64,000 bases of DNA from Arcobacter sp. F2176 (GTDB lineage Bacteria; Campylobacterota; Campylobacteria; Campylobacterales; Arcobacteraceae): assembly GCF_004116465.1 (NCBI RefSeq), contig NZ_PDJV01000008.1:1-64000 (forward strand). The letters run 5' to 3'. Position 1 is the stretch's first letter, and each line of letters begins with the position of its first letter. Below the pieces are notes generated by a model that was given only the letters and a program-made list of their open reading frames with translations, did not search any database and was not told the origin of the DNA. Shown piece by piece: positions 9,116 to 63,228 of the stretch. Made by a program: the position numbers and the translations under genes.

Positions 9116-9871
9116 TTATTTAAATGAATTTAAATGATTACTTGCTTCTTTATATCCTAGCTTAAATAGTTCATCCAATCCATCAAAAGTAAACATTTTT
9201 GTCTCTCTTAATTCATTGGTTGTGATATAAATATCTGTATGTTTTATTGCATAATCAATATTTAGATGCCAAGTTTTAAATATTCTTTTTTTTACTAAAT
9301 TTATTGGATTGTAATTTTTTTGCAAACTTCTTTCTTTTCTTGGTAGAAGGTCAAGGGCACAGATTTTATAATTTTTATTTAATAGTGGTTCAACTGGTAT
9401 ATTATTTAACAATCCCCCATCAAATAATTTTCTATTCTCAAATTTTAAAGGTTTGAATAATGGAATCAAAGCAGAAGAAGCTATACATAAGTTCACTACA
9501 TCACCTTTATCATAATAGATTAGCTCTTTATTTTTGTAATCATAAACACAAATATATAAAGGTTTTGGAATATCTTCTATTTTAGCTATTGGCAATAACT
9601 CTTTTATTAAAGGATTTGTTGTATCGATTTTAAGTAAACCATTTAGATAAGGGTTAAATTTTATACATTTCTTTAGCTCTTTTGATTTGAATATTTTTAA
9701 TTGTTCTAAAGGAGAGATTCCACTTGCATATGAAGCTGCAATTATTGAGCCAATTGAACTTCCACTAAAAGCTTCAAACTTAATATTTTGTTCATCAAAA
9801 AAAGCTAATGCACCTAAATGAAAAGCACCTCTTGCTGCTCCACCACTTAGGCAAAGTGCCAATTTAGTCAT
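9116..9871 (-). CDS. Patatin-like phospholipase (RssA/YlbK type)
   Basis: About 251 aa, cytoplasmic serine lipase/acyl hydrolase fold. The N-terminus shows the oxyanion-hole motif SGGAARG; the nucleophile elbow is GSSIGS, and the catalytic Asp is in DGGLLNN. No signal peptide. The open frame reaches a TTG at 9883, but the ATG at complement 9871 begins directly before the conserved TKLALCLSGG and lies 5 nt after the stop of the upstream phosphoesterase, so I use it. Sharing an operon with a PlcP/LpxH-like enzyme suggests phospholipid turnover (inference). The true acyl substrate is unknown. Confidence 0.88.
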   Translation of the reverse strand: MTKLALCLSGGAARGAFHLGALAFFDEQNIKFEAFSGSSIGSIIAASYASGISPLEQLKIFKSKELKKCIKFNPYLNGLLKIDTTNPLIKELLPIAKIEDIPKPLYICVYDYKNKELIYYDKGDVVNLCIASSALIPLFKPLKFENRKLFDGGLLNNIPVEPLLNKNYKICALDLLPRKERSLQKNYNPINLVKKRIFKTWHLNIDYAIKHTDIYITTNELRETKMFTFDGLDELFKLGYKEASNHLNSFK

Positions 9872-9876
9872 GTTTT

Positions 9877-10605
9877 TTACCAAGTAATAATTTCAAATTT
9901 ACCCTCATAAGTCTCCACAAGTGCAGTGCATGATTCGACCCAATCACCACAGTTTTTATATTCAATTCCTTCTATATCTCTTTGTTCTGCTTTATGAATA
10001 TGTCCACAAATGATACCATCATAACCTTTGTGTTTTGCATGGTTAGTTAGAACTTTTTCAAAATCATTTATAAAATTAACAGAACTTTTTACATTATCTT
10101 TTATAAATTTTGATAGTGACCATTTTGAATTGATCTTAAAAGTCTTTCTTATTCTATTTATTATAAAGTTTATATAAAGTAAAAAATCATATCCGTAATC
10201 TCCCAAAATAGCTAACCACTTTTTTGTCATAGTAATCGAATCAAAAAAATCACCATGGGTTACATAATAACTTTTTCCACTTATAGATATATACTCAAAC
10301 TCATTAGAAACTTCTAAATTGTCTCCTAAAATAAGTGGAACAAAAGGTCTTAAAAATTCGTCGTGATTGCCAGTTATTAGGTACACATTTGTACCTTTTC
10401 TAGCTTTTCTTAGAACTTTTTGTATAACATCAGAATGGGCTTGAGGCCAAACAAATTTTCTTCTTATTGACCAACCGTCAATAATATCGCCTACTAAAAA
10501 AAGATTTTCACTTTCATTATCTTTTAAGAAGTCAATTAGCTTTTCAGCTTGAGAAAATCTTGTACCTAAATGTACATCTGATATAAATATTGATTTGTAT
10601 TTCAT
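9877..10605 (-). CDS. Calcineurin-like phosphoesterase, PlcP/LpxH-like
   Basis: 242-aa metallophosphoesterase with the full dinuclear metal set: SDVHLG, GDIIDGW, GNHDEF, THGDFFD and GHIHKAE. Such proteins are usually annotated UDP-2,3-diacylglucosamine diphosphatase. The same sub-family includes PlcP, a phospholipase C that frees diacylglycerol from phospholipids in phosphate-starved alphaproteobacteria and marine heterotrophs, where it sits beside a glycosyltransferase (Agt). Here a GT4 glycosyltransferase starts 82 nt away on the other strand, so the PlcP role is at least as likely as LpxH. The central 'WLAILGDYGYDFLLYIN' stretch is hydrophobic and could contact the membrane. Motifs alone cannot separate the two roles. 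Confidence 0.82.
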   Translation of the reverse strand: MKYKSIFISDVHLGTRFSQAEKLIDFLKDNESENLFLVGDIIDGWSIRRKFVWPQAHSDVIQKVLRKARKGTNVYLITGNHDEFLRPFVPLILGDNLEVSNEFEYISISGKSYYVTHGDFFDSITMTKKWLAILGDYGYDFLLYINFIINRIRKTFKINSKWSLSKFIKDNVKSSVNFINDFEKVLTNHAKHKGYDGIICGHIHKAEQRDIEGIEYKNCGDWVESCTALVETYEGKFEIITW

Positions 10606-10617
10606 AATTAGATTTTA

Positions 10618-10680
10618 ATTATATATGGTTACATTATGGCATCATTTTAGTAATATTTTTGTAACCATTACTTGATAATA
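10618..10680. promoter_or_regulatory. Divergent promoter with PHO-box-like 11-bp repeats
   Basis: Between the two divergent genes, four 7-mers stand exactly 11 bp apart: GTTACAT (10628), GCATCAT (10639), GTAATAT (10650) and GTAACCA (10661). The first two match CTGTCAT at 4 of 7 positions each. 11-bp direct repeats with AT-rich gaps are the layout of PhoB boxes. The array is also bracketed by an 8-bp inverted repeat, ATGGTTAC/GTAACCAT (10625-10632, 10661-10668). A minus-strand TATAAT (10618-10623) and a plus-strand GATAAT (10674-10679) lie so close to the two starts that both mRNAs could be nearly leaderless; neither start has a Shine-Dalgarno. Binding by PhoB is inference. Confidence 0.35.
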
Positions 10681-10687
10681 TATTTGA

Positions 10688-11905
10688 ATGAATAATGTAA
10701 ATATAGTTTTATTTAGCGATACTGTTTATGACTTAAATGGAGTATCTCGATTTTTAAATGATTTTGCTAATATCTCAAAAGATGAATTTAAGATAATAAC
10801 ATCTACGAGAAAAAATGCCTTCTCACAAAAAAAATCTATTTATAATGTTAAACCTTTTTTTAAAATGTCTATGCCTTTTTATAAAGAGTTAGATTTAGTA
10901 TTTCCAAATCCATTTAAAATGGCAAAATTATTAAAAAAACTCTCTCCAAATCTAGTGCATATTTCTACTCCTGGTCCTGTTGGAATAATAGGTTCAATCT
11001 TAGCTAGATTTTATAAAATACCAAAAGCTGGAATATATCATACTGATTTCCCTGCATACATATATAAAAATACAAACTCAAAAATCTTTAGATATATCTC
11101 AAAATGTTATTTAAGATTTTTTTATAGTAATTTTGAGGCAATATTTGTCCGAACCCAAGAGTATAAAAGTATTGTCATGAATGATTTAAAAATAGATGCA
11201 TCAAAAATATTTATTTTAAAATCAGGAATTAATACAAAAAGCTTTTCTTCATCTTTTAGAGATATAAATATTTGGAATGATTATAAAATAAGAATAAATA
11301 GTATGAAGTTTTTATATGTGGGAAGAGCTACAAAAGAGAAAAATATAGAGTTTTTGATTGAACTATTTAAGAAGGTATATTCTATAAAGTTAAATATTGA
11401 TTTAATCATTGTAGGAAATGGGCATTTTTTAAAGTACAAAAAAGAGTTAAAGAAATTTAATATTCATTTTTTAGGAATAAAATTTGAAGAAGAGTTATCA
11501 AGTATATATGCTAGCTCTGATGTTTTTATTTTCCCTTCTACTACAGATACCTTAGGGCAAGTTGTTATGGAGGGTATGAGTTCTGCTCTTCCTGTTATTG
11601 TTACAAATAAAGGTGGACCAAAAGAGCTTGTAAAGGCTTCTAATAGTGGATTTATTTTGGATATCAAGGATGAGAAAGAGTGGATTAACACTATTGAAAT
11701 ACTTTATGAAAGTAAAAATTTATATAAAAAATACTCACAAAATTCTGTTACGTTTATGAAAGATAAAGATATAGAAAATAGTTTTAAAGACTTTTGTGAT
11801 AAAAATAAATTAATCTGTGAAAACTCTTATTTTTCTTCCATAACAAAATCTAAAACAATGTTATTTTCTTTTGAACTTATATACTCTTTACATCTATTTA
11901 TATAA
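10688..11905 (+). CDS. GT4-family glycosyltransferase (Agt/SqdX-like)
   Basis: 405 aa, GT-B fold. The N-terminal acceptor domain starts NIVLFSDTVYDLNGVSRFL. The C-terminal donor domain has FLYVGRATKEKN and the GT4 E-x7-E region around GQVVMEGMSSALPVIVTNKGGPKELV. Relatives glycosylate diacylglycerol, sulfoquinovosylate it, or build mannolipids. Being divergent from a PlcP-like gene, it is the expected partner (Agt) that would glycosylate the released diacylglycerol (inference). Its last 79 nt overlap the 3' end of the convergent cyclase gene. The ~25 final residues therefore read through cyclase coding sequence and are probably a stop-loss extension. Confidence 0.8.
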   Translation: MNNVNIVLFSDTVYDLNGVSRFLNDFANISKDEFKIITSTRKNAFSQKKSIYNVKPFFKMSMPFYKELDLVFPNPFKMAKLLKKLSPNLVHISTPGPVGIIGSILARFYKIPKAGIYHTDFPAYIYKNTNSKIFRYISKCYLRFFYSNFEAIFVRTQEYKSIVMNDLKIDASKIFILKSGINTKSFSSSFRDINIWNDYKIRINSMKFLYVGRATKEKNIEFLIELFKKVYSIKLNIDLIIVGNGHFLKYKKELKKFNIHFLGIKFEEELSSIYASSDVFIFPSTTDTLGQVVMEGMSSALPVIVTNKGGPKELVKASNSGFILDIKDEKEWINTIEILYESKNLYKKYSQNSVTFMKDKDIENSFKDFCDKNKLICENSYFSSITKSKTMLFSFELIYSLHLFI

Positions 11906-13944
11906 AGCCTATTTATTTTAGAAGGATGAGTATCTTCAATCTCTTCAAAAATAGTTTTACTATCAGTGAAGTTTTTATTTTGATAGCATTTAATAGCTTT
12001 TTCATAATCTTCTTGCACATTTTCAAACTCTTCAAACTCTTTAGGTAATAGGACTTGATAAAGTTTTATTGAGGTACTTTTACCTTTTACAATAACACTT
12101 GCTAAATATTTCAAATGGTAATTGTCTTTTAATAATATTTTTGTAGATTCAGAGATTAGTAACTCAACTGCAAAATATTTGCTAAGTCCTTCAATTCTTG
12201 AGCATAGATTTACATTATCTCCAATAATCGTATAATCACTTCTTCCAGATGAACCCATCTCCCCAACAACTGCTAGTCCTGTATGAATTCCTATACCTAT
12301 TTGAATAGATAAATTAAAATCTTTTTTAAGTTCATTATTAAGTACTTCTAACTTTTCAAATTGCCTCAAGGCACTTTGAACTGCTTTATCCGCATGATTT
12401 TCCACATCACAGGGAGCATTCCAATATGCCATAATTGCATCACCTATAAACTTATCAATTGTTCCATGGTTTTGTATGATTACTTCACTCATTGGCTCGA
12501 AATACTTATTAAGTACTTCAATTAGTTTTTGTGGAGATTCAAACTCTTCAGAGATATTTGTAAACCCTCTTATATCACTAAAGAAAATAGTTAGCTCTTT
12601 TTCTTTAGCTTTAAAATCATTATTATCATTTGATAACAAATCATTGGCAACTTCCAATGAGACTTTTTTTGCAAATTTGTCTTTTATAAACTCTTTTTGT
12701 TTTTGCTCTTTTTGATAATTGATATAAAAAGCACTTAGGCTTGTTAAAATAATTGAGACTATTGGATAAAAAAGATTTAAAATAAGACCTTGGGAGAAGA
12801 GCAAATAATAATAGAGTGAATAAAGAATAGTAGATAATAAAAGAATAACAACAATAATGTTAGTAGATGATAGAAAAAGTAAAAGTGTTCCTAAAACTAC
12901 AGTTAATATAAATATAACTAAAATATCAATAGCTTTTCCAAATGTTGGTTCATATAAAAAGTCACCTTTTAAAATATTGTCAATCATATTTGCATGTATC
13001 TCAACTCCTGGTAGGGCTAAATCGTATACTGTTGAACGCAAATCTGCTAAAGTAGTAATAGAACTTCCTATTAAAATAAATTTTCCATTTACATCTTTTG
13101 GGTCAAAATTACCATTTAAGATATCTAAAAAAGAGATATATTTAAAACTCTTTTTTGCTCCTCTAAAATTTATTCTCATAAAACCATTTTTATCTGTTGG
13201 TATATCAATATTTGAAAGTTTTACACCAGAAATAGAATAATCATCTTGGATTATTTTTACATTTTGTGTATTACTTGCAATATTAATCATTTCAAAAACT
13301 AAAGAGGGATAGATTTTATTTTTATATTGTAGTAATAGTGGCATTTTAATAATCTTCCCTTGTTGATCATTAAAGGCATTAAAAAAGCCAGAAGAATAAG
13401 TACTTTCTTGTATGGGTGAAATATTTGTAACTACATTTTCAAAGTTTAAAAGATGAGGTGATGAATTAGGAGTGAATTTTGTAACGGGAATTGGTTCGGA
13501 ATTTTTTGATAGATTTTTTGTAAAATAATATCCTAAAACTGTAGGCGTTTGGGAAATAACAGCAGCTAAAAGTTGATCATTATCTCTAAAATCACCTTGT
13601 ACATTTAGTTTTTTTGCCATATAGGAAGGGGAACTTCTATCTGATTCTGAAAATATAATATCAACACCTATAATTCCAGCACCTGCATTTGTAAGATTTG
13701 CTAAAACTTGTGCTATATAATCTCTACTAAAAGGCCATTGTCCAAGTGCATTTATAGATTTTTCATCAATATCGATTATTACTACTTTATTTGTAGTGGG
13801 GATTTCTCCTCTTATTTCAAAAAATATTTCTCTAATTCTTTCATCAAAATTACTAGTTATTTTATTAAAATTTAAATAGCAAAAGGTTAATAATATAAAA
13901 GATATGAAAAAGAATAATATCTTATGCTTAATAAAAATTTTCAT
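11827..13944 (-). CDS. CHASE2-domain adenylate/guanylate cyclase
   Basis: 705 aa. One N-terminal membrane segment (about residues 8-26); an extracytoplasmic CHASE2 sensor (about 30-330, with VVIIDIDEKSINALGQWPF and GVDIIFSE); a block of three membrane segments (about 335-410); and a class III cyclase domain beginning FFSDIRGFTNISEEF (about 451) with FIGDAIMAYWNAP and GRSDYTIIGDNVNLCSRIEG. A short TPR-like tail follows. It senses a periplasmic signal and makes a cyclic nucleotide; substrate choice (ATP or GTP) was not resolved. Divergent from a FecR-domain gene 47 nt away, a frequent partner of CHASE2 cyclases. Confidence 0.93.
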   Translation of the reverse strand: MKIFIKHKILFFFISFILLTFCYLNFNKITSNFDERIREIFFEIRGEIPTTNKVVIIDIDEKSINALGQWPFSRDYIAQVLANLTNAGAGIIGVDIIFSESDRSSPSYMAKKLNVQGDFRDNDQLLAAVISQTPTVLGYYFTKNLSKNSEPIPVTKFTPNSSPHLLNFENVVTNISPIQESTYSSGFFNAFNDQQGKIIKMPLLLQYKNKIYPSLVFEMINIASNTQNVKIIQDDYSISGVKLSNIDIPTDKNGFMRINFRGAKKSFKYISFLDILNGNFDPKDVNGKFILIGSSITTLADLRSTVYDLALPGVEIHANMIDNILKGDFLYEPTFGKAIDILVIFILTVVLGTLLLFLSSTNIIVVILLLSTILYSLYYYLLFSQGLILNLFYPIVSIILTSLSAFYINYQKEQKQKEFIKDKFAKKVSLEVANDLLSNDNNDFKAKEKELTIFFSDIRGFTNISEEFESPQKLIEVLNKYFEPMSEVIIQNHGTIDKFIGDAIMAYWNAPCDVENHADKAVQSALRQFEKLEVLNNELKKDFNLSIQIGIGIHTGLAVVGEMGSSGRSDYTIIGDNVNLCSRIEGLSKYFAVELLISESTKILLKDNYHLKYLASVIVKGKSTSIKLYQVLLPKEFEEFENVQEDYEKAIKCYQNKNFTDSKTIFEEIEDTHPSKINRLYINRCKEYISSKENNIVLDFVMEEK

Positions 13945-13991: not shown

Positions 13992-14567
13992 ATGAAAAAA
14001 ATTATAATTGGACTTTGTTTTCTTTTTGTTTTAAATATATTTGCAGATAGTGTAATAAGTAGTGGAGATGTATATATAAATGGAAAAAAAGTTACAAAAA
14101 ATAGTGTCGTAAAACTTGGAGATTTTATAAAAACAGGTAAAAACTCAAAAGTAAAATTTAATATAGGTAAAGATGCTTTTTTAGCAAATGCTGATACAAA
14201 ATTTTCAATACAAGAAAAGGGTGGTTTAAAAACTCTTAATGTAGTAACAGGTGGAGTTCTAGCTGTCTTTGGTAAAGGTGGTGATAAACATGAAGTTAAA
14301 ACAGAAAATATGACAGCAGGCATTAGAGGAACAGGTGTTTATGTAGAGCATATTGATGGGAAATCTTATTTTTGTACATGTTATGGTCAAACAGAATTAA
14401 ATACAGCAAAAGCTCATAAGTCATATGAAGCAAAGCACCATAATATGGCTTGGATATTAGCAGATGGCACAATAAAACCTGCAAAAAAATTAAGAGATCA
14501 TAATGATGATGAGCTTAGAGAACTTGAATTAATGGTAGGAAGAATTCCTCCCTTTGATAAAAAATAA
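13992..14567 (+). CDS. FecR-domain secreted protein
   Basis: 191 aa with a cleavable signal peptide (MKKIIIGLCFLFVLNIFA). The mature part follows the FecR-domain pattern: a beta-rich repeat beginning SGDVYINGKKV, then GDFIKTGKNSKVKFNIG, LNVVTGGVLAVFG and TAGIRGTGVYVE. Unlike classical FecR it has no membrane anchor and no partner FecI sigma factor. The C-terminal part is His/Cys-rich (CTCYG, HHNMAW). A GAGGC Shine-Dalgarno precedes the ATG. Its neighbour is the CHASE2 cyclase on the opposite strand; a periplasmic ligand-binding or signal-feeding role is inference. Confidence 0.85.
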   Translation: MKKIIIGLCFLFVLNIFADSVISSGDVYINGKKVTKNSVVKLGDFIKTGKNSKVKFNIGKDAFLANADTKFSIQEKGGLKTLNVVTGGVLAVFGKGGDKHEVKTENMTAGIRGTGVYVEHIDGKSYFCTCYGQTELNTAKAHKSYEAKHHNMAWILADGTIKPAKKLRDHNDDELRELELMVGRIPPFDKK

Positions 14568-30151: not shown

Positions 30152-31030
30152 ATGAAAATAAAATCTAAAGATTTTCGTGTTATAAAAGAAAAGGAAGTTG
30201 AACTTGATAAGTGGCCGACACAAGTAAAGTCTATATATAAATCTAAAAAAAAATATAAAAAACTTCTAAAAAAGAATATTAAAAAACTCAGTTCCCAACA
30301 GCAGTTACTCTATGCATCTAATAGTTATTCTGTCTTATTGATATTTCAAGCTATGGATGCAGCAGGGAAAGATAGTGCTATAAGACATGTAATGTCTGGG
30401 ATAAATCCACAAGGATGTCAAGTATTTAGTTTCAAGCATCCAAGTATTGAAGAACTACAGCATGATTTTCTTTGGCGCACTACTCAATCCTTGCCTGAGC
30501 GTGGTAGAATTGGCATTTTTAACCGATCCTATTATGAAGAGGTATTAATTGTACGAGTACATCCAGAGATTATGGAAGGCGAAAATATTCCCGAATCTTT
30601 GTTAAATAAGAAAACTATTTGGAAAGAGCGTTATGAATCTATAGAAGAAATGGAAAAACATCTTCATAGAAATGGTACACGAATTATTAAGTTCTTTCTT
30701 CATCTCTCACCAAAAGAACAATGTAATCGTTTTTTAAAGCGCATCGATAATCCAAAGAAAAATTGGAAGTTAACTAACTCAGATATCCAAGAGAGAAAAT
30801 TTTGGAAAGATTATATGAAAGCTTATGAAGACTGTTTAAGTGCTACTAGTACTGAAAAATCACCTTGGTATGTTATTCCTGCTGATGATAAAAAGAATAC
30901 AAGATTAATTATTTCAAAAATTATTCTTGATACTTTTAAATCACTTCAATTAACATACCCCGTTGCAAGTGAGGAACATCGACAAGAATTGCAAGATATA
31001 CGTAAACAATTAATAAAAGAAAATTTATAA
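30152..31030 (+). CDS. ppk2: Polyphosphate kinase 2 (PPK2)
   Basis: 292 aa, class I PPK2: transfers phosphate between polyphosphate and nucleoside di/triphosphates. Walker A in [16 protein letters not shown] (about residue 67), the FKHPS segment, and the lid and Walker B region with [25 protein letters not shown]. Length is normal. AAGGA lies 5 nt before the ATG. Stands as a single gene between two unknown coiled-coil proteins; a role in stress or phosphate storage is general for the family. Nucleotide preference cannot be told from sequence. Confidence 0.95.
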
Positions 31031-59823: not shown

Positions 59824-60486
59824 ATGGAAATTAATAATAATAAATTACCAAAAAGAAAACCAAAGAAAACTTTTCGCTCAGTAACTGGATATTTTCCTAG
59901 TAAGAAAAATGATAGAAGTTTATTTTTTGAGTCAATGCTTGAAAAAACTTTATTTGTTACTTTAGAATTTGATGATAATGTATTAACTTATTTAGAACAA
60001 CCTATAAAAATAGATTATAAATTGAAAAATAGAAACACAAGTTATCATCCAGATTGTCTTATTAATTATAAAAAAGGAAAATCAAAACTTATAGAGGTTA
60101 AATATAGTACAGAGTTGATAGAAAAAAAAGATAAACTTGAAATCAAATTTAATCAAGCAAGACTATATGCAGAACAAAATGATTTGATTTTTGATACTTT
60201 TGATGAGAGATGTATTGATATACAAACATTAAGAAATATGGAGTTTCTTTACTCATTTGCTTTTCATCCAAGTGATAATGAAAAGGAACAAATAATCCTT
60301 AAAATTTTAAAAGAAAACGCTGAATTATCTGTTTTGGAACTATTAACATTAATTACTGAAAATAGATTTGAGCAAGCTAAATATTTACCATATGTTTGGA
60401 AATTGGTGTTTGATAAGCTCATTAAACTTGATTATCAAAACATACAAATAAATATGAACTCACAACTAAGGTTAAATGATGAATAA
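59824..60486 (+). CDS. tnsA: TnsA-like transposon endonuclease
   Basis: 220 aa. Restriction-endonuclease-like subunit that cuts the 5' ends of the transposon, allowing cut-and-paste. Motifs: FFESMLEKTLF (Glu36), SYHPDCLI (Asp77), IEVKYS (Glu91, Lys93), matching the Glu-Asp-Lys set of Tn7 TnsA; then a helical C-terminal half (about 140-210) that would contact TnsC. AAAGG lies 7 nt before the ATG. The stop overlaps the tnsB start. Confidence 0.93.
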   Translation: MEINNNKLPKRKPKKTFRSVTGYFPSKKNDRSLFFESMLEKTLFVTLEFDDNVLTYLEQPIKIDYKLKNRNTSYHPDCLINYKKGKSKLIEVKYSTELIEKKDKLEIKFNQARLYAEQNDLIFDTFDERCIDIQTLRNMEFLYSFAFHPSDNEKEQIILKILKENAELSVLELLTLITENRFEQAKYLPYVWKLVFDKLIKLDYQNIQINMNSQLRLNDE

Positions 60487-62374
60487 AATTTCTTTAAATA
60501 TAGGTGCAAAAGTTTATTTTGAAAATAGAGAATATGAAATATCTAAACAAATCTCCACAAAAGAAGTTTTAGCAAAAGAGATCGAATTCCCTTATGAGTT
60601 TAAAGTTTTGAAAATTCACACTTTAAAATCAATGCCAGAAAAAATCCAAGAAGTAGATATTAGCCTATATGATAAAGAAGAATGGGAAGAAGCAAATAAA
60701 AAATATAAGATTATAAAGCCCTTATTAACAGGTAAAAGAAATACAAAAAAAGATGTTGAAGAAGTTGCAAAAGAACATAATACAAGTGTACCTACAATAT
60801 ATAGATGGATACAAGATTACAATAGTACGGGAACTCTAAGTTCTTTAGTTCCAAATTTAAAGAAAAGAGGAGGTCCTAAAAAGAATAGACTTCCTAAAGA
60901 AGATGAAACAATTATAAAAGCAGTTATTGATGAGTATTATTTAAATTCACAAAAATACTCTATACCTTATATTTATAGAATCATTCAAGAAAAATTTCAC
61001 AATGCAAATTTAAAGCCTCCACATCTAAATACAATCAGAAAACGAATTGATAATTTGAGTTCAAAAGAAGTTACAAGACAAAGGGATTCAAGTAAAGTAA
61101 CTGACACTTGGGGAACACCAGGTAAAAATCCAAGAGGTAATTTTCCTTTAGAACTTGTACAAATAGATCATACACCATTGGATTTGGATTTAGTTGATGA
61201 AGAAAATAGAGAATCTATTGGAAGAGCATATCTTACTTTAGGAATTGATGTATTTAGTAGAATGATAATGGGATTTTATATTTCATATGAGCCAGTTAGC
61301 TTTTTTAATACTGGGCAGTGTATTTTAAATATGATTATGCCTAAAGAGGATTTCTTAAAACAACAAGGAGTTGATGGAGAATGGCCTATTTATGGTTTGC
61401 CTAGAGAAATTTCTACCGATAATGCAGGTGAATTTAGAGGAATTGACTTAACTAGGTTTTGTGAACAATATTCTATAGAAATAGATTGGCGTCCAGTTGG
61501 TCGCTCGTTCTATGGTGCAAATGTTGAGCGTGTTTTCAAAACTTTAAGTAGTGAAGTTCATAATTTATCAGGAACAATGTTCTCTAATATTGTTCAAAGA
61601 GGAAATTATAATTCTCAAAAGAATGCAGCAATGACAATAGGTGAATTTGAACAATGGTTTACTGAATTAATTGTAAATGTGTATCATAAAAAAGTACACA
61701 GTGAACTTGAAATGACTCCTGAAGAGAAATATATGGAAGGAATCTTTGGCTTAGGTGATTATCCAGGAACTGGCTTACCTCCAATTATAGAAAATACTAA
61801 ATTTTTAAGATATTCACTACTACCTTCCTTTGAAAGAACAGTCCAAAAAACTGGTATTACATTAGATCATGTTACCTATTTCTCAGAAACTTTAAGAAAA
61901 TGGATTGTTCCCCAAGCTGCAACTAAAAAAGGAAGAAGTAAATTATTTATTTGTAAAAGAGACCCTAGAGATATAAGTAAAATATATTTTTATGATCCTG
62001 ATATAAAGGAATATTTTGAATTACCATATAGAAATATTACAAATCCTAAGATAAATCTTTCAGAGCTAAGAGAAACCATTGCAAAAATAAAAGCAGATAA
62101 AGGAGATACTCATTCACTTGATGAAATGACTCTTTTTCAAACATATAAGAGAATGAGAGATATAGAGGAAAATTCTAAAGTTAAAACAAAAAAAGCAAGA
62201 CGTAAAAAAAGTTCAAAAAACCATTTAACCAAAAAACTTGAGCAAGAGAAAAAATTAGTGAAAGAAGAGATAGAAGAAAATCAAGAAGAACTTAGTAAAA
62301 CAATTGTTAAAAATATAGAGATAGGAACACCAGAATTGTTTAGTTTTGATTTAATAGAGGAGGATGAAGTATGA
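60476..62374 (+). CDS. tnsB: TnsB-like DDE transposase
   Basis: 632 aa (630-631 if the second ATG at 60479, better spaced from AAGG, is used). It cuts and joins the 3' ends. N-terminal HTH domains (DVEEVAKEHNTSVPTIYRWIQ) bind the ends. The RNase-H core has Asp231 (LVQIDHT), Asp315 (STDNAGEF) and Glu351 (NVERVF), i.e. a DD(35)E spacing. The Mu-type beta-barrel follows (about 450-530), and a Lys/Glu-rich tail would activate TnsC. Confidence 0.95.
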   Translation: MMNKISLNIGAKVYFENREYEISKQISTKEVLAKEIEFPYEFKVLKIHTLKSMPEKIQEVDISLYDKEEWEEANKKYKIIKPLLTGKRNTKKDVEEVAKEHNTSVPTIYRWIQDYNSTGTLSSLVPNLKKRGGPKKNRLPKEDETIIKAVIDEYYLNSQKYSIPYIYRIIQEKFHNANLKPPHLNTIRKRIDNLSSKEVTRQRDSSKVTDTWGTPGKNPRGNFPLELVQIDHTPLDLDLVDEENRESIGRAYLTLGIDVFSRMIMGFYISYEPVSFFNTGQCILNMIMPKEDFLKQQGVDGEWPIYGLPREISTDNAGEFRGIDLTRFCEQYSIEIDWRPVGRSFYGANVERVFKTLSSEVHNLSGTMFSNIVQRGNYNSQKNAAMTIGEFEQWFTELIVNVYHKKVHSELEMTPEEKYMEGIFGLGDYPGTGLPPIIENTKFLRYSLLPSFERTVQKTGITLDHVTYFSETLRKWIVPQAATKKGRSKLFICKRDPRDISKIYFYDPDIKEYFELPYRNITNPKINLSELRETIAKIKADKGDTHSLDEMTLFQTYKRMRDIEENSKVKTKKARRKKSSKNHLTKKLEQEKKLVKEEIEENQEELSKTIVKNIEIGTPELFSFDLIEEDEV

Positions 62375-63228
62375 ATGAAAATTTATCTCCTCAGCTAAAA
62401 AAATATCTTGATTTAAGTGATGAAGAAAGAATCTTTTTTATTCAAAAAGATAAATGGATTGATTATCCTGATGCAAATAAAATATTGGCAAAAATTGAAG
62501 ATATATACAATGCTCCTAAAAGTATAAGAAGTAGAGGGATGCTTTTGTATGGAGATAGCAACAATGGGAAATCAGCTATTTTAAAACGTTTTTACAGAAA
62601 ATTTGCAAAAGATGAGTATATAGATGAAGATGGAGATTTAATTCACTTGATGCCTCTTGTATATGTCATAGCTGAAGCCTCTTCTGATGAGTCAATAATG
62701 TTTACTGAAATCTTATCAAGTATGAATGTTCCAGTGAATCATAAAGAGAAAGTCTCAAAGAAAAAGGAAGAGGCAGTTTTTTATTTAAATTTGATGAAAA
62801 CAAAATTGATAATAATAGATGAGATTCAAAATGTACTACATGGTCCACATAATAAAATGGCTCAACTTATTACCTCCCTTAAAACATTAAATAATAAAAC
62901 AGGAATACCTATAATCCTTGCAGGTACTCAAGATGCTATGTCTGCCATATCAATTGATAATCAAACAAAATCAAGATTTAAACCTTATGAATTACCACTA
63001 TGGAATAATGATGAAAACTTCTTAAGGTTTATTGCTACTATGGAAGCTATGTTACCATTAAAAAAAGCATCAAATATATTTAAAAATTATGAATTACTAA
63101 GTTATCTTCATGGACTATCAAAAGGATGTATTGGAGAAGCAATAGATATTTTAAAAGATGCTTCAATTTATGCTATTAGAACAAAAAGTGAAAGAATTAC
63201 AAAAAAAGAGATAAAGGAGTCGTTATGA
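62371..63228 (+). CDS. tnsC: TnsC/TniB-like AAA+ ATPase
   Basis: 285 aa regulator that links the target-bound protein to the transposase. Walker A GDSNNGKS (61-68), Walker B LIIIDEIQN (Asp150, Glu151), sensor-1 in PIILAGTQDAM, arginine-finger region FKPYELPLW. At 285 aa it is the short form, as in TniB and many CAST-type elements, not the 555-aa Tn7 TnsC. Overlaps tnsB by 4 bp (ATGA). Confidence 0.95.
   Translation: MNENLSPQLKKYLDLSDEERIFFIQKDKWIDYPDANKILAKIEDIYNAPKSIRSRGMLLYGDSNNGKSAILKRFYRKFAKDEYIDEDGDLIHLMPLVYVIAEASSDESIMFTEILSSMNVPVNHKEKVSKKKEEAVFYLNLMKTKLIIIDEIQNVLHGPHNKMAQLITSLKTLNNKTGIPIILAGTQDAMSAISIDNQTKSRFKPYELPLWNNDENFLRFIATMEAMLPLKKASNIFKNYELLSYLHGLSKGCIGEAIDILKDASIYAIRTKSERITKKEIKESL

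Follow-up and report, generated by a model that had tools for sequence, protein, structure and literature searches.

What does a phosphoesterase gene followed by a patatin gene and divergent from a GT4 glycosyltransferase gene do in Arcobacter? The window analyzed herein is a 64,000-nucleotide stretch of contig C8 of G000, a 3.27-Mb genome of the Arcobacter type. The replacement of membrane phospholipids through PlcP and the glycosyltransferase Agt is a known process (PMC4796936, PMC8528852, PMC9239053), which has been proven in Phaeobacter (PMC4796936) and P. aeruginosa (PMC8528852). A sequence-only reading of the window proposed that the three genes at positions 9116-11905 form a possible phosphate-saving lipid remodelling module. 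All three genes are present as placed (Table 1), and the proposal is supported by the position of the phosphoesterase in the PlcP clade, the match of GT4 to Agt, and the predicted Pho boxes. We consider it likely, with a probability of approximately 0.8, that a Pho regulon for the remodelling of membrane lipids has its core in this locus.

Table 1. Genes and predicted regulatory sites (positions in the window, except for OlsF)
Feature	Position	Strand	Model	Remarks
Patatin-like lipase	9116..9871	-	PF01734	ATG at 9871, alternative TTG at 9883; directly 3' of plcP
PlcP metallophosphoesterase, predicted phospholipase C type	9877..10605	-	PF00149	
plcP Pho-box-like site	10627..10644	-		TGATGCCATAATGTAACC; 39 bp before start codon; 14.6 bits; first half-site degenerate
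GT4 Pho-box-like site	10649..10666	+		AGTAATATTTTTGTAACC; 39 bp before start codon; 10.1 bits
GT4 glycosyltransferase, Agt-like	10688..11905	+	PF00534, PF13439	Divergent from plcP
OlsF bifunctional ornithine lipid synthase	G000:C27:12610-14313 (L278:3111-4817)		NF052615	Full length; outside the window

The strands and spacing bear out the reading of the patatin as a member of the phosphoesterase operon and of GT4 as divergent from it. The plcP stop codon lies 5 bp before the patatin ATG; therefore, the two genes are operonic and probably translationally coupled. The start codons of plcP and GT4 are separated by 82 bp. Since the plcP-patatin and divergent plcP/GT4 arrangements recur across Campylobacterota genera and families, this layout is not due to chance.

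The GT4 coding sequence overlaps by 79 bp, or its last approximately 24 residues, with the 3' end of a CHASE2-guanylate/adenylate cyclase gene, which is the next gene (11827-13944). A class III cyclase gene also lies 3' of P. aeruginosa plcP-agt1, which is probably a coincidence. A meaningful link to the CHASE2 cyclase was rejected because it adjoins in only five loci of family f1. By eye, a possible FecR-type secreted protein is encoded beside the cyclase (13992-14567), three genes resemble TnsA, TnsB, and TnsC of a Tn7-like transposon (59824-63228), and a ppk2-like gene occurs at 30152-31030, in line with the ppk2 mentioned in the sequence-only reading. No Pho-box match of at least 13 bits was found near the ppk2-like gene.

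Identity of the phosphoesterase

The best NCBIfam models for the phosphoesterase are LpxH models, and the earlier label "LpxH-like" is right as an annotation. However, the scores were far under the LpxH equivalog cut-offs, both of which were missed (48 versus 134 bits and 35 versus 190 bits). The protein showed 47.7% identity over 241 residues to an S. meliloti protein, which we take to be SMc00171, the gene of which adjoins acyl-homoserine-lactone synthase and LuxR regulator genes. It also showed 48.5% identity to a P. aeruginosa protein whose gene is followed by a glycosyltransferase gene and then an adenylate cyclase gene; this phosphoesterase-glycosyltransferase pair is presumably PA3219-PA3218. 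PA3219 and PA3218 were experimentally shown to be PlcP and Agt1 (PMC8528852). The nearest sequences found outside Campylobacterota were SAR11 PlcPs (55%). In a maximum-likelihood tree of 64 sequences, the window enzyme grouped with the PlcPs of S. meliloti and P. aeruginosa, and all PlcPs fell on one side of a split with support of 93/89, in a tree with some long branches and a bootstrap that was not fully settled. The LpxH-like proteins of E. coli, H. influenzae, and Campylobacterota were outside the PlcP clade on long branches. Residues of the metal-ligand type (D10, H12, D40, N80, H117, H202, and H204) are present in the window protein and invariant in A1.

A second LpxH-like gene is located on contig C4 of the same genome, and this gene is present in 247 of 249 Campylobacterota genomes and in 55/55 genera. 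PlcP was detected in 33 of the 249 genomes, or 32 after the removal of one divergent homologue with 34% identity. The C4 gene also missed the LpxH cut-off (67 versus 134 bits); therefore, its naming as LpxH draws on its distribution. LpxI was sought in addition, and none was found. A firm placement within LpxH in a genome with no other lpxH was thus not what we obtained. Judged from its sequence, the window phosphoesterase is PlcP, not LpxH, and it is predicted to have phospholipase C activity yielding diacylglycerol. PlcP-like proteins that have diverged strongly (33-34% identity, 229 aa) are also encoded at G258:C17:8302-8955 and G153:C7:6902-7576.

Pho boxes and a predicted phosphate regulon

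A de novo (EM) motif search of the 150-bp regions that precede plcP in Campylobacterota, with a training set that took in a congener 97% identical to the window site, yielded TGTNATTNANNTGTAAYC, which comprises two direct-repeat units 11 bp apart. This motif is located at -39/-40 before plcP in most family members, despite differing neighbour genes. Pho boxes have this format, with two direct repeats of 11 nt (PMC4415409). The pstS promoters of the same genomes, when scanned with the plcP motif matrix, provided an independent test. Their best scores had a median of 14.8 bits (n=25), against -3.7 bits for 363 other upstream regions (p 8e-17), while nine tungstate-binding PstS paralogues had a median of -0.8 bits. 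Nearly all of the signal was lost with a column-reversed matrix. Since the plcP motif also precedes pstS in the same genomes, we regard it as a Pho box. At 11 bits or more, it was found before olsF in 60% of 20 cases (p 2e-10) and before GT4 in 55% of 11 (p 2e-7), compared with 1% of background upstream regions.

The sites in the genome under study are weaker than those of its relatives, namely, those of plcP and GT4 (Table 1) and that located 55 bp upstream of olsF on contig C27 (11.9 bits); the 99th percentile in 377 other upstream regions was 15.0 bits. The GT4 site occurs at the same position in the congeners L059 and L060 and is stronger in L107, L108, L109, L135, and L136. A genome-wide search with the exact pattern TGTNAYNNNNNTGTAAYC gave few matches, with 2 in G000 versus 1 in the reversed control, and, therefore, was not counted as evidence, with the exception of one match in G033 that precedes pstC. 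Before the PIN-PhoH gene located upstream of plcP in family f10, the motif was weak (2.8-6.5 bits) and no Pho box is claimed there.

Gene neighbourhoods are in agreement. In L111 and L112, plcP-patatin has pstS-pst permease genes on one side and phn-like genes on the other; the latter encode a PhnM-like amidohydrolase, a PhnP-like metallo-beta-lactamase, and a PhnL-like ABC ATPase. Other neighbours of plcP include OlsF (L121 and L129), the PIN-PhoH gene (f10), and a GT28/GT2 fusion (L122). This GT28-like/GT2 fusion, directly 3' of plcP (L122:6080-7870), is a possible alternative glycolipid synthase. Based on the motif common to pstS promoters, plcP, GT4, and olsF are predicted to be under phosphate-starvation control. 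The match between the Pho boxes before these three genes and those before pstS provides the strongest support for remodelling, which was not available to the sequence-only reading.

The glycosyltransferase, the patatin, and OlsF

A profile of ten Campylobacterota GT4s had the plcP-linked Agt as its sole match at E<=1e-20 in 7/7 Pseudomonadota plcP-agt genomes. An Agt profile searched against G000 gave 147 bits for the window GT4 and 48 bits for the next protein. These profile searches make the window GT4 and the PlcP-associated Agt reciprocal best matches, rather than pairing GT4 with polysaccharide glycosyltransferases. The nearest NCBIfam model of GT4 is the membrane-lipid glycosyltransferase NF053787, as it is for Agt itself, and identity to Agt is 22-30%. 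A search of PDB profiles with the GT4 alignment at E 1e-25 gave no match. Ten of the 11 catalytic/donor residues of GTcp, the SAR11 Agt, are kept, including His104 and Asp256, with Phe258 being replaced by Leu. The Agt-type Asp is present instead of the usual Glu of GT4 enzymes. However, Arg163 is replaced by S/A/P and Trp320 by I/F in 10/10 Campylobacterota GT4 rows. These two residues were reported to be essential in GTcp and were assigned to the diacylglycerol site by docking (PMC8231724). PA3218, which is proven to be active, has Lys in the Arg163 column of the alignment; therefore, only Trp320 cleanly divides Agts from Campylobacterota GT4s. Since the donor residues are kept but two acceptor residues are replaced, GT4 is a distinct variant with an uncertain acceptor. 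The idea of GT4 as the Agt-type partner of PlcP stands as far as the reciprocal match, but GT4 is not an Agt sensu stricto; GT4 may work like an Agt, but we do not file it as one. GT4 (E<=1e-40) was found in 7 of the 249 genomes, all seven of which also have PlcP (genus-level p 0.002). A second Agt-like GT4, perhaps an Agt2 analogue, is encoded at G043:C1:3158971-3159798 and G057:C1:679225-680058 (132 and 128 bits, respectively, with the Agt profile).

The patatin matched its Pfam model with 98 bits. It has the SGGA, GSSIG, and DGG motifs (glycine-rich loop, GXSXG, and DGG/A), which point to an active enzyme. The nearest solved structure by sequence was PlpD (E 5.8e-18; patatin residues 3-65), and an AlphaFold model without an alignment had a pLDDT of 34. 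The patatin gene is directly 3' of plcP in 18 of the 27 plcP-bearing genera. GT4 is present in 4/9 genera in which the patatin is not adjacent versus 3/18 in which it is, which weakly suggests that the patatin handles diacylglycerol where no glycosyltransferase does. Four genomes have the patatin with neither PlcP nor a Pho box; therefore, the patatin has another use too. In L089 and L094, a patatin orthologue of this kind is followed by a gene for a HAD-type phosphatase. The patatin is the least understood part of the locus, and our literature search found no paper joining a patatin with PlcP.

OlsF of this genome scored 828 bits against a cut-off of 620. OlsF occurs in 54 of the 249 genomes, comprising 32/32 with a true PlcP versus 22/217 of the others (genus-level Fisher p 1e-7). 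Genome-level p values for co-occurrence ignore relatedness, and the genus-level tests also hold. Most Campylobacterota PlcP genomes have no GT4, and, thus, the glycolipid branch is not a universal partner of PlcP. OlsF is found in 22 genomes without PlcP and, therefore, has other uses.

Proposed pathway and known systems

The sequences show the identities of the genes, how the operon is organized, which genes co-occur, and that Pho boxes are shared with pstS; what the enzymes do, on which substrates, and what the patatin contributes are predictions. When phosphate is low, a PhoB/PhosR-type regulator would bind to the tandem repeats that lie between both promoters. PlcP would then cleave phospholipid into a phosphorylated head group and diacylglycerol, freeing phosphorus. 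GT4 may use a UDP-sugar to glycosylate diacylglycerol, the sugar probably being glucose or glucuronic acid, and thereby form a phosphorus-free glycolipid, while deacylation of diacylglycerol or leftover phospholipid to fatty acids is probably the role of the patatin. OlsF, encoded by a distant gene with its own Pho box, would produce ornithine lipid as a second surrogate. We thus read this locus as a putative phosphate-saving regulon of Campylobacterota with a lineage-specific glycosyltransferase and a patatin partner.

Three other explanations were weighed. That the phosphoesterase is the LpxH of this genome, acting in lipid A synthesis beside unrelated housekeeping or polysaccharide genes, is very improbable. 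LpxH models are its top NCBIfam matches and its homologues are annotated as UDP-2,3-diacylglucosamine diphosphatase in public records; however, it falls far under the LpxH cut-offs and within the PlcP clade, a Pho box lies upstream, and genes of its type are missing from 216/249 Campylobacterota, whereas the other LpxH-like gene is present in 247 of the 249 (the C4 copy itself having 67 of 134 bits). It is also unlikely that GT4 serves in capsule, LPS, or protein glycan synthesis, with its Pho regulation having a different cause. The GT4 family is very broad, and many NCBIfam polysaccharide GT4 models match at 40-90 bits. However, its closest model is that of Agt, its profile retrieved only Agt from the Pseudomonadota genomes, it has the Agt-type Asp, and it is confined to PlcP genomes. 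A purely polysaccharide GT4 was rejected.

The remaining explanation is a possibility to which we give less than even odds. PlcP and the patatin may degrade phospholipid fully, the true surrogate being the ornithine lipid of OlsF and GT4 being an optional recent branch with a product that may not be glycosyl-diacylglycerol. The presence of OlsF in all 32 PlcP genomes and of GT4 in only 7, the adjacency of olsF to plcP in L121 and L129 and of the patatin in two thirds of the genera, and the GT4 acceptor residues unlike those of Agt are consistent with this explanation. Ornithine lipids also reach 40% in Sulfurimonas gotlandica (PMC9789136). However, the intergenic Pho boxes also lie before GT4, reciprocal searches pair GT4 with Agt, and OlsF also occurs in the 22 genomes without PlcP. 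We tentatively speculate that PlcP and a dedicated patatin in Campylobacterota strip diacylglycerol or residual phospholipid to fatty acids that OlsF reuses, which would constitute a phospholipid-to-aminolipid pathway, and that a few lineages add a GT4 with a non-Agt acceptor site to make an undescribed glycolipid.

Oxic-anoxic boundaries and vents harbour abundant Campylobacterota, but the ways in which these bacteria save phosphorus have hardly been studied. From the Pho-regulated PlcP-patatin-OlsF(-GT4) set, predictions can be made of which lineages replace their phospholipids, and with what, and the set may help to explain the glycolipids and ornithine lipids of anoxic marine waters. The present study also provides a usable Pho-box motif for the phylum. 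The sequence-only reading knew of no description of the pathway in Campylobacterota. Our literature search found no description or test of such lipid remodelling in this phylum and no description of PlcP in Arcobacter; however, agt homologues in Arcobacter, Sulfurovum, and Thiovulum were mentioned in passing in 2016, with the lipids made "to be determined" (PMC5193443). New here are the Pho-box evidence across the phylum, the pairing of PlcP with a patatin, the full nesting of PlcP in OlsF genomes, and the deviating GT4.

The window PlcP shares the metallophosphoesterase superfamily with LpxH, but differs in its separate clade, sub-cut-off score, upstream Pho box, and non-universal presence in the phylum. 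The patatin has its domain and motifs in common with the patatin-like phospholipases PlpD and RssA; however, the similarity is weak (residues 3-65 only for PlpD), and PlpD and RssA have no known PlcP partner. In Desulfovibrio alaskensis G20, Agt and OlsF have been proven, and glycolipid and ornithine lipid are formed only or mostly under phosphate limitation (PMC5193443). Genes for Agt-like and OlsF proteins also occur here, whereas that study did not mention PlcP or the patatin and Campylobacterota genes were not its subject. We found no counterpart of the conserved patatin partner in the described PlcP-Agt systems. The window locus differs from these systems in that GT4 is divergent rather than downstream and only 22-30% identical with Arg163 and Trp320 replaced, the patatin is in the plcP operon, and OlsF would act instead of or beside the glycolipid. 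However, as in Phaeobacter, SAR11, S. meliloti, and P. aeruginosa (PMC4796936, PMC8528852, PMC8231724), a PlcP of the same clade is encoded beside a GT4, and the Pho-box control predicted here has been reported for the P. aeruginosa glycosyltransferase operons. The locus appears to be a real, Pho-controlled variant of this known system.
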